This document shows positions 41,500 to 44,032 of a stretch of DNA of 64,000 nt, piece after piece. Each line of letters starts with the position of its first letter. Position 1 is the first letter of the stretch. The stretch lies in assembly GCA_013289695.1 (NCBI GenBank), contig JABCZK010000015.1, positions 1 through 64,000 of the forward strand. Reading direction: 5' to 3'. A model generated the notes under the pieces. The model searched no databases and had not been told where the DNA came from. It saw nothing but the letters and a program-made list of their open reading frames with translations. Made by a program: the position numbers and the translations under genes. This stretch comes from Acidobacteriota bacterium (GTDB lineage: Bacteria > Acidobacteriota > Terriglobia > Acidiferrales > UBA7541).

Positions 41500-42111
41500 C
41501 TATACGAGTCTCTTCCGACGCCAACCTACCAAACCCAGCACTCCGGAGCCGAGCAGCAACAGCGAGGAGGGTTCTGGCGCGGTGGCCGACGCGGTCGTCA
41601 CAGTTCCCTCGAGATTCACTCCCTCTAAAAAGCTATCCGTGCCTGTGATGTCGATAGACAGGGTGTTCGTCCCGACAACGAAATCGCCGCTGGGAACTGT
41701 GAAGGATTGGAGCGAGCCCCAATTGCCACCGCCAAGCGTCGCAACTACATTCCCGTTAAGGAGGAGTTCCCCACTGTCATCTAAGGTCCAACTTCCTGAA
41801 AGTGCCGCTGACGAAATATTGGCCGAGGTCAAAACGAACGTGGTGCTATAGTCACCAAGGCCGTTATCGCAGCAGTTAGTGGGGTTGTACGCAATCCAAG
41901 ATGAGCTCGAACTATTGGCGACCCAGCCTCCGTACCAGTCGGCGTCTGTGGGCGTGACCACCGAAGCTGTCGCAGTCGCGCCCAAGTTGTAGCCGTTTTG
42001 TTCCACCACGGTATAAGTGGCTGTGCCCGTGGACAGGTTTTGACCGTCTCCCAGCGCCGGAATAGACATGAACAAGGTCGCGGCAGCGACCACAAGCAAG
42101 CGCTTCATCAT
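41500..42111 (-). CDS. PEP-CTERM sorting-signal protein
   Basis: 203 residues. A signal peptide (MMKRLLVVAAATLFMSIPALG) precedes a beta-sandwich domain with repeated LDDSGELLLNG-type strands. The C-terminus is a PEP-CTERM signal: APEPSSLLLLGSGVLGLVGWRRKR, a Pro-Glu-Pro motif, a hydrophobic helix and a basic end. Exosortase (EpsH) cleaves such signals, and the proteins are linked to exopolysaccharide; no exosortase is in this window. AGGGGA lies eight bases before the ATG pair at 42111. Function of the mature domain unknown. Confidence 0.82.
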   Translation of the reverse strand: MMKRLLVVAAATLFMSIPALGDGQNLSTGTATYTVVEQNGYNLGATATASVVTPTDADWYGGWVANSSSSSWIAYNPTNCCDNGLGDYSTTFVLTSANISSAALSGSWTLDDSGELLLNGNVVATLGGGNWGSLQSFTVPSGDFVVGTNTLSIDITGTDSFLEGVNLEGTVTTASATAPEPSSLLLLGSGVLGLVGWRRKRLV

Positions 42112-42620
42112 GTTTTTCCCCTTGTTTTCGTGTCGAACTGAATCAGTAACCCCAACGTTCTCGCAATCGCCGCTCCAATTTGTGACTGGACAACACTGAA
42201 GGAAGACCTTGCACTTACTTGCCCCGTAATGCCCTTTCGTGTCCTTTCTTGTCCTTGCCTTGTGCCAGCATAGCCATGGGGCACCTAGCACTTCAGGGGA
42301 GCGGTATCACGACCCAAAGACCTCCGACCTGAAAGTGCTTGCACACTTCCGGCAGGGAAATTCCCAGATTTCGCACTTCCTAATCTAACGCTGGGCTCCT
42401 GTCCCGGCGCAGGTAAACTCCCTCAGCGACATGGCTATGTGCTTGTAAGTCACGTTACCGGAAATGTGAAGCAACACTTTATTTCTCCGATAACGGACTT
42501 GTCGGCCTGGGCTAAATAGCTTTGGCGCTTTGCGCGATTGCGGCCAGCGCCCGGATGGAAATGGTGTAGACTTGCGGCATTCGTCCCCCGAAGGAACTCC
42601 CATCTTAGGAGATTAAAAAT
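42112..42620. other. divergent leader region
   Basis: Separates the leftward PEP-CTERM gene from the rightward DsrE-like gene, so two promoters should lie here. No coding frame is convincing. AGGAG sits nine bases before the DsrE-like ATG. Confidence 0.45.
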
Positions 42621-43064
42621 ATGGCGCGACGTACGTTCCTGACTCAGTTGGCTGGTTTGCCTTTTCTAGCGTTGGGTCTGAAGGTCGAGGAGTCAAAAAA
42701 GCCTCTTAAAATTATGATGAAAAGCGCGTGGGGGCCGGACGACCCAACACGGGCAGCATTTCCGTTCGCGCACGGACTCGCGCTCGCAGAAGCGGGCCAC
42801 GAGGTACAAATCTTCCTTCTCGCAGAGGCCACTTCTCTGATGCGAAAGTCCATGGTGAACGCGATTCTGCCGGTTGGCTGGCCGCCGTTGAGCGAGACAC
42901 TCGACAAGGTTGTGGCAAGACACATTCCGATCTTTGCTTGAGGAGCCTGTTCCCGGGCCCGTGGGGTCACGGAAACAGACCTGAATCAATGGGGAGCAAA
43001 ATTTGGTAATCCGGCGATCTTTGTCTCGCTGGTGGAATGGTCAGACCGGATTATCGTAGAGTGA
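42621..43064 (+). CDS. DsrE-family protein, candidate selenoprotein (in-frame UGA at Cys position)
   Basis: Read conventionally it ends at TGA 42939-42941 after 106 residues (ending HIPIFA). The same frame then continues for 40 codons, GACSRARGVTETDLNQWGAK... to ...SLVEWSDRIIVE, and stops at 43062-43064. DsrE proteins have CGxC followed by xxARGxxExDL at this point, so the TGA sits exactly at the first Cys, giving U-G-A-C, and the conserved tail is intact. Full product: 147 residues. A hairpin with a GGGT loop lies 22 bases downstream. The N-terminus (ARRTFLTQLAGLPFLALGL) resembles a twin-arginine signal. AGGAG precedes the ATG. DsrE-fold proteins handle sulfur or redox chemistry. A nonsense mutation is the alternative. 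Confidence 0.72.
42947..42978 (+). promoter_or_regulatory. SECIS-like hairpin after the in-frame UGA
   Basis: Inner stem CCGTG (42959-42963) with CACGG (42968-42972), loop GGGT. Outer stem CTGTT (42947-42951) with AACAG (42974-42978). Between the UGA and the loop are 22 bases, inside the 16-37 range reported for bacterial SECIS elements, and the loop opens with G. The 5' side has a seven-base bulge. Confidence 0.55.
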
Positions 43065-43485
43065 AAAACAGGCAGTACGTCCAGGGCGGGTAAGATTTCG
43101 GCTGTCTCCGGCACACCGTCAACGTCTGATAAGGGTGATCTCAATGGGTCGACGCACCACGAGGCTAGAGCCCGCCCGGCATTGAGAACAAAAGCCAAAA
43201 TCGCTCGCTGAGGTCAGACCAGCAGGAAAGCTGCCCTGGCTAGGTTTTGGCCGAGTGCAGCCAAACAGATGGTTCTCCCGCGGAAGCATTGCCGAATCAA
43301 TCCACTGGCTGGTGTTGCGCTGACCGGTTGGGCTGGCAGCGTTAATCAATCAGGAGTTATCCTCCCGTACGTGAGGGTCCCGCTCAAAAAAAGGGCTGAC
43401 GAGTACATCTCTAAGTAAAACTTCGCTTTCCCGGTCACGGCGATTACCGGGGCTTGCGACGCTTCAAAGGCTCATGGCGAAGTGT
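43065..43485. other. gene-free gap
   Basis: No supported gene, repeat or RNA. Short frames here look like shadows. Confidence 0.4.
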
Positions 43486-43629
43486 TCATCGCGTTAAGTA
43501 CGCGACTGGGATTGCGGTCCCGATGACAATGGCGCACAGCACGATTCGCGGCCAGCGCGGGATGTATTCCCAGCCGCGGCCGCAGTTGCCGTTTGCGCGG
43601 GGTTCGGGGGCGACGATTTCGTGGGTCAT
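43486..43629 (-). CDS. small single-span membrane protein
   Basis: 47 residues: MTHEIVAPEPRANGNCGRGW, then a hydrophobic helix (RIVLCAIVIGTAIPVAYL) near the C-terminus. GAGAGGA precedes the ATG at good spacing. No family recognised; small acidobacterial membrane peptides of this kind are often unannotated. Confidence 0.45.
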   Translation of the reverse strand: MTHEIVAPEPRANGNCGRGWEYIPRWPRIVLCAIVIGTAIPVAYLTR

Positions 43630-43749
43630 GTGGTCCTCTCGGCGGGTAAAATCCGCGCGCAACCAAATGGCCGTACGGCTCGACATTTACATTGAGTACT
43701 TGTTCAGACTATTGGTCCGTGCGATACGGCTGGTGCGCTGTTATAGAAG

Positions 43750-43932
43750 TTATCGCGCCGGCGGTTCAGCCTCTGGCTTTCTGGCGGCCTGCTTGAAGCC
43801 TGTGACTTCGAAGTCTCGCAGCAGATCGGAACGTACGCCAATTTCCCAGCTTGCTTTCACAGCGGAAGACGCGGAGTCTGTCTCGGCTGGCTTCTCTATT
43901 TGCTTTTCAAGTAATTGTTTTCTGTCTGGCAT
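43750..43932 (-). CDS. small soluble hypothetical protein
   Basis: 60 residues, Glu/Lys/Ala-rich: begins MPDRKQLLEKQIEKPAETD, with a conserved-looking core EIGVRSDLLRDFEVTGFK. AAGGAG lies seven bases upstream of the ATG. The composition differs from the opposite-strand frame, which is Arg/Ser-rich, so this strand is preferred. Function unknown. Confidence 0.45.
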   Translation of the reverse strand: MPDRKQLLEKQIEKPAETDSASSAVKASWEIGVRSDLLRDFEVTGFKQAARKPEAEPPAR

Positions 43933-44032
43933 TGCCGTGCTCCTTTTCGAAAACATCCCGCGAGTCCCTGCGGCTTGTGCGTCAATGATAAGGCCAAACT
44001 GCAGGTGGATCACGCACTGAATCTGACTGGGG

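Follow-up and report, generated by a model that had tools for sequence, protein, structure and literature searches.

We have identified a DsrE-family gene of an Acidobacteriota bacterium that very probably encodes a selenoprotein. The hairpin at 42953-42972 would recruit SelB and tRNA-Sec to read an in-frame UGA at 42939 as selenocysteine, and the product, a protein of 147 residues with the DsrE/DsrF fold and a putative redox role in the cell envelope, would carry U-G-A-C at its active site in place of the C-G-A-C of most relatives. All positions refer to the window, that is, the whole stretch of 64,000 nt that was analysed (Table 1). The selenocysteine reading had been proposed in a preliminary description made from the DNA letters; it is supported computationally by coding continuity and selection downstream of the UGA, by the exchange of Sec and Cys codons at position 107, by RNA constraint at the SECIS position and by the Sec machinery of the genome.

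Table 1. Features of the UGA-containing DsrE gene and related loci (window positions unless a locus is named)
Feature	Position	Strand	Remarks
Duplicated segment	42559..43344	+	84.6% identical (799 columns, ~0.8 kb) to L100:7644-8435 on the minus strand of contig C29
AGGAG, ribosome-binding-site-like	42607..42611	+	9 nt 5′ of the ATG; read from the sequence
DsrE-family gene	42621..43064	+	147 residues when TGA is translated as U, Sec at 107; PF02635 match, alignment and tree
N-terminal leader MARRTFLTQLAGLPFLALGLK...	42621..42695	+	Predicted twin-arginine-type signal; alignment consensus
Proposed Sec codon UGA	42939..42941	+	Opens UxxC (U107-G-A-C110); TGA or TGC/TGT only in aligned homologues
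Basal extension of hairpin	42947..42978	+	CUGUU 42947-42951 pairs with AACAG 42974-42978
Partner Cys110 codon of UxxC	42948..42950	+	Column invariant in the 42-row alignment
SECIS-type hairpin CCG-GGCCC-GUG-GGGUC-A-CGG	42953..42972	+	Loop GUG 42961-42963; A bulge; UGA-to-loop distance 19 nt
Further UGA-form DsrE gene in G399	L114 = G399:C6:31284-31724		
Formate dehydrogenase alpha, window's genome	L119 = G000:C3:64127-67000		
Formate dehydrogenase alpha, window's genome	L120 = G000:C9:38243-41095		

Sequence and translation confirm the coordinates given in the preliminary description, with the ATG at 42621, the internal TGA at 42939 and the final TGA at 43062. The internal TGA (42939-42941) is the sole interruption of this frame, which reads GACSRARGVTETDL beyond it and ends at TGA 43062-43064; standard gene calling stops the frame at 42941. 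Long open frames past a TGA are common in the window: of its 108 frames that span at least 100 codons and end in TGA, 40 (37%) have at least 40 open codons past the stop. The open frame was therefore rejected as sole evidence, and the case for the DsrE gene must rest on homology and constraint. Homology on both flanks of the TGA is beyond chance, as the PF02635 profile matches residues 38-145, spanning the stop, with 43.5 bits (cut-off 22.7), and the protein is kept on both sides in 45 aligned homologues. The gene falls below the equivalog cut-off of the NCBIfam DsrE2 sulfur carrier model NF047629 (12.8 bits versus 210), and an Rfam search of positions 42000-44000 gave no match. Upstream, a PEP-CTERM protein is encoded divergently (41500-42291, minus strand); nothing evident connects it with the DsrE gene. 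Conserved operon partners were not found past genus-level synteny, and no neighbours are shared across phyla.

A scan of 84,980 genomes yielded 48 relatives. Codon 107 is TGA in 15 of the 45 aligned homologues and TGC or TGT in 30, with no other codon present; this count takes in second copies and the UGA-form gene of genome G341, and codons were scored where the alignment was clean. The preliminary description had placed the TGA at the first cysteine of a CxxC motif and had proposed aligning homologues to look for Cys or UGA there; the alignment shows precisely these two states. Close homologues contain no internal stop besides the TGA at codon 107. No viral homologues were found among IMG/VR candidates.

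The same genome carries a second UGA-form copy of the gene on contig C29 (L100:7929-8372, minus strand), which retains the TGA, differs from the window gene at 36 of 444 nt and is 96% identical to it in protein sequence. Past the UGA, dN between the two copies is 0.023 and dS is 0.51, a difference that indicates translation of this stretch. In place of decay downstream of the UGA, which according to the preliminary description would speak against selenocysteine, there is purifying selection. These observations bear on the possibility that the gene is a pseudogene or encodes a truncated protein of 106 residues, the UGA being either a sequencing error or a real stop into which a Cys codon has mutated. 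Only one base separates TGC or TGT from TGA and gene calling does close the frame at 42941, but the TGA is common to 15 sequences, many of them from separate assemblies, and to both copies in the window's genome, selection past it is purifying, and the hairpin codons are synonymously constrained in TGA members only. Conservation past the UGA argues strongly against a pseudogene or truncation, which we regard as extremely improbable. Standard annotation would nevertheless end the protein at residue 106, with loss of the active site, in every UGA-form genome. G399 (the source of L017) is another genome with two DsrE genes of the UGA form; their identity to the window gene is 72% and 90%.

Downstream of the UGA lies a hairpin with a 5+3 bp stem and a GUG loop (MFE −14.7 kcal/mol for nt 10-41). 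It fits the published bacterial SECIS model, applied here as a loop of three with G first and a spacing of 16-37 nt: the 3-nt loop begins with GU and the spacing is 19 nt. The basal extension of the hairpin is not kept throughout the UGA members: all five pairs form in 6 of the 15, and 1 to 4 in the rest. Synonymous change collapses in UGA members solely in codons 110-118, at the hairpin, and Cys members have no such dip. In codons 108-119, pS among 11 UGA members is 0.254, compared with 0.69 upstream and 0.70 downstream; the corresponding values for Cys members are 0.73, 0.76 and 0.80. The lowest 8-codon synonymous window in UGA members is formed by codons 111-118 (rank test, p = 1.5e-5; p = 0.97 for Cys members). 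This dip is the expected signature of an RNA element needed by UGA members alone.

Pairing among homologues was compared for two overlapping registers. In the GUG-loop helix, 92.9% of cells are paired (14 distinct sequences), while slid-partner controls give 20-63%; its two compensatory changes, each a single event, are C-G to G-C in L018 and G-C to A-U in the second copy of G399. One apical-stem mismatch is present in each of L019 and the second copy of the window gene, so efficiency there may be lower; in the latter, a G-to-A change breaks one apical pair and leaves the stem of the GGGU register unharmed. The preliminary description had named the GGGU-loop hairpin, and it does exist, as CCGUG-GGGU-CACGG at 42959-42972 with the loop 22 nt past the UGA. 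It could be the SECIS element of a UGA that is still read as Sec: in the window its 5-bp stem has no mismatch, pairing reaches 87.1% of cells, its loop also satisfies bacterial SECIS rules and it stays intact in the second copy, where the GUG-loop hairpin has its mismatch. However, it shows no compensatory changes, a count no different from shuffles, against two in the GUG-loop helix, and pair 24-31 fails to form in 5 of 14 sequences. Among these are all members of the distant UGA group (G341, L053 and L054), in which 4-5 of the 5 apical pairs of the GUG-loop helix are retained. Covariation and the distant members thus favour the GUG-loop register, and the GGGU loop is a rather unlikely SECIS element. 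We prefer the GUG-loop register, although the two might alternate.

The window's genome, an assembly of 64 contigs and 4.5 Mb with 87% completeness, contains everything that the preliminary description had suggested looking for, selA, selB, selC and selD: selA (557 bits), selB (362) and selD (369) each score above the NCBIfam cut-off, and a tRNA-Sec with anticodon UCA was detected at 63 bits. Two genes for formate dehydrogenase alpha are present as well; in each, one in-frame TGA occupies the canonical Sec position of QAR(V/L)-U-H(G/S)PTV (QARL-U-HSPTV and QARV-U-HGPTV), which is independent evidence of Sec use in this genome. These FdnG-type genes serve as a positive control, with UGA at the canonical Sec site, although the protein is unrelated to DsrE and the hairpin sequence is different. 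They are two more selenoproteins that standard annotation would split. Reading of the DsrE UGA without selenium, as Trp or Cys or by a near-cognate suppressor, is highly unlikely in view of this machinery (tRNA-Sec with UCA, selA, selB and selD) and of the two UGA formate dehydrogenases; moreover, Cys is the only residue at position 107 in sense relatives and a SECIS-type hairpin is conserved.

Among 12 UGA-form genomes, selB scores above the cut-off in 11, selA in nine, and a tRNA-Sec of at least 63 bits is present in 10. In G396 and G341 selA is not above the cut-off, G404 has no tRNA-Sec, and G405 (1.7 Mb) lacks selA, selB and a convincing tRNA-Sec. The simplest reason for these gaps is that the assemblies are incomplete. 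The genome of G341, whose UGA-form DsrE gene is L101 (G341:C96:70174-70539), is 97% complete and has selB and tRNA-Sec; here selA above the cut-off may be missing because of an assembly gap or because the Sec synthase is divergent. The Cys-form genomes of Edaphobacter, Granulicella and Chitinophagaceae that were checked have neither selA nor selB above the cut-off and no tRNA-Sec above 50 bits. Overall, selB occurs in 11 of 12 UGA-form and 17 of 31 Cys-form genomes (Fisher p = 0.03). Since many Cys-form genomes own selB, the association with UGA is modest, and selB co-occurrence was rejected as strong evidence.

The AlphaFold2 model of the protein (pLDDT 85.6) has the DsrE/DsrF fold. The closest solved folds are the DsrE/DsrF-like structure 3mc3 (Z 12.8) and YchN (1jx7, Z 12.4), both scoring well above unrelated structures; a sequence-only search of PDB gave best E-values of 0.24 and 0.67. 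In the model, Sec107 sits between a strand (104-106) and a helix (108-114), and in a phmmer alignment of the UxxC motif with the CxxC of YchN it matches the first Cys. YchN and 3mc3 differ from the window protein in having Cys for Sec and no leader, and identity is ~20% or less. The sulfur-relay proteins TusBCD (2d1p, Z 10.7) and DsrEFH (2hy5, Z 10.6) share the fold as well, but they are subunits of hetero-oligomers, whereas the window protein comes from a stand-alone gene.

The N-terminus has the consensus MxRRxFLxxLAxLPF in the 42-row alignment, and the model is of low confidence there (pLDDT 50-68 before residue 30). The conserved MxRRxFL motif suggests Tat export, in which the leader would direct the protein, already folded, to the cell envelope. 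DsrE/DsrF-fold members of known role relay sulfane sulfur on cysteine. By analogy, the window protein would be an envelope carrier of persulfide or of thiol redox equivalents, in which Sec107 and Cys110 may form a selenenylsulfide/persulfide or a thiol-disulfide redox pair, and the Sec form might outpace the Cys form in carrying sulfane sulfur or in reducing a thiol substrate. The leader motif and family resemblance are the basis of both the proposed location and the proposed substrate. A cytoplasmic sulfur relay similar to TusD or DsrE, with an N-terminal RR that is no export signal, is possible but doubtful. Such a location would agree with that of characterised DsrEFH, which PMC3397948 describes as cytoplasmic, with the lack of a clear cleavage site in the window leader and with the G341/L053/L054 branch, which has no obvious leader; it is harder to reconcile with the leader consensus, MxRRxFL and then a hydrophobic stretch, which Sec and Cys forms share in both Acidobacteriota and Verrucomicrobiota.

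The preliminary description was right in recalling that bacterial surveys had reported DsrE-like selenoproteins. DsrE-like UxxC selenoproteins were described from the Sargasso Sea in 2005 (PMC1088965) and in Desulfovibrio vulgaris (PMC1794560), DsrE 1 and 2 selenoproteins were listed in the GOS survey (PMC2398784), and WP_014524487.1 appears as a DsrE-like selenoprotein in reviews of 2022 and 2026 (PMC9312934, PMC13188914), the latter of which calls the functions of the group mostly uncharacterised (PMC13188914). With the first descriptions dating from 2005-2006, the window gene adds to a known family. It shares with the published members PF02635, homologues with Cys, Sec as the opening residue of UxxC and a SECIS soon past the UGA; its likeness to the WP_014524487.1 subfamily is one of Pfam family and UxxC motif, taken from published descriptions alone. 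The published members come from marine bacteria or Desulfovibrio, whereas the window gene belongs to Acidobacteriota, has a twin-arginine-type leader and is present in two copies. The additions made here are the acidobacterial host, the predicted leader, the duplicated gene and a Sec-to-Cys reversion; a limited literature search found no acidobacterial, leader-bearing, duplicated DsrE selenoprotein. The range of DsrE-type selenoproteins is thereby extended to Acidobacteriota, a major soil phylum.

The protein tree requires at least three Sec/Cys changes. L027, a Cys form, nests in the main UGA clade with 3 of 5 apical pairs left, and reads as a Sec-to-Cys reversion whose hairpin is decaying. 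L053, L054 and G341 make a second UGA group apart from the main clade; the AU test rejects a single clade of all UGA members (p = 0.0064); the tree contains a long branch. Tentatively, the genes may represent an exported stand-alone Sec-DsrE subfamily of soil Acidobacteriota, distinct from the Desulfovibrio and marine proteins and possibly serving as an envelope carrier of persulfide (or selenium), in which Sec would have been gained or lost repeatedly and the SECIS would be decaying at L027. Together these sequences offer a natural series for Sec gain and loss: the UGA form with its hairpin intact, the UGA form with a mismatch in the hairpin (the second copy) and the Cys form after hairpin decay (L027).
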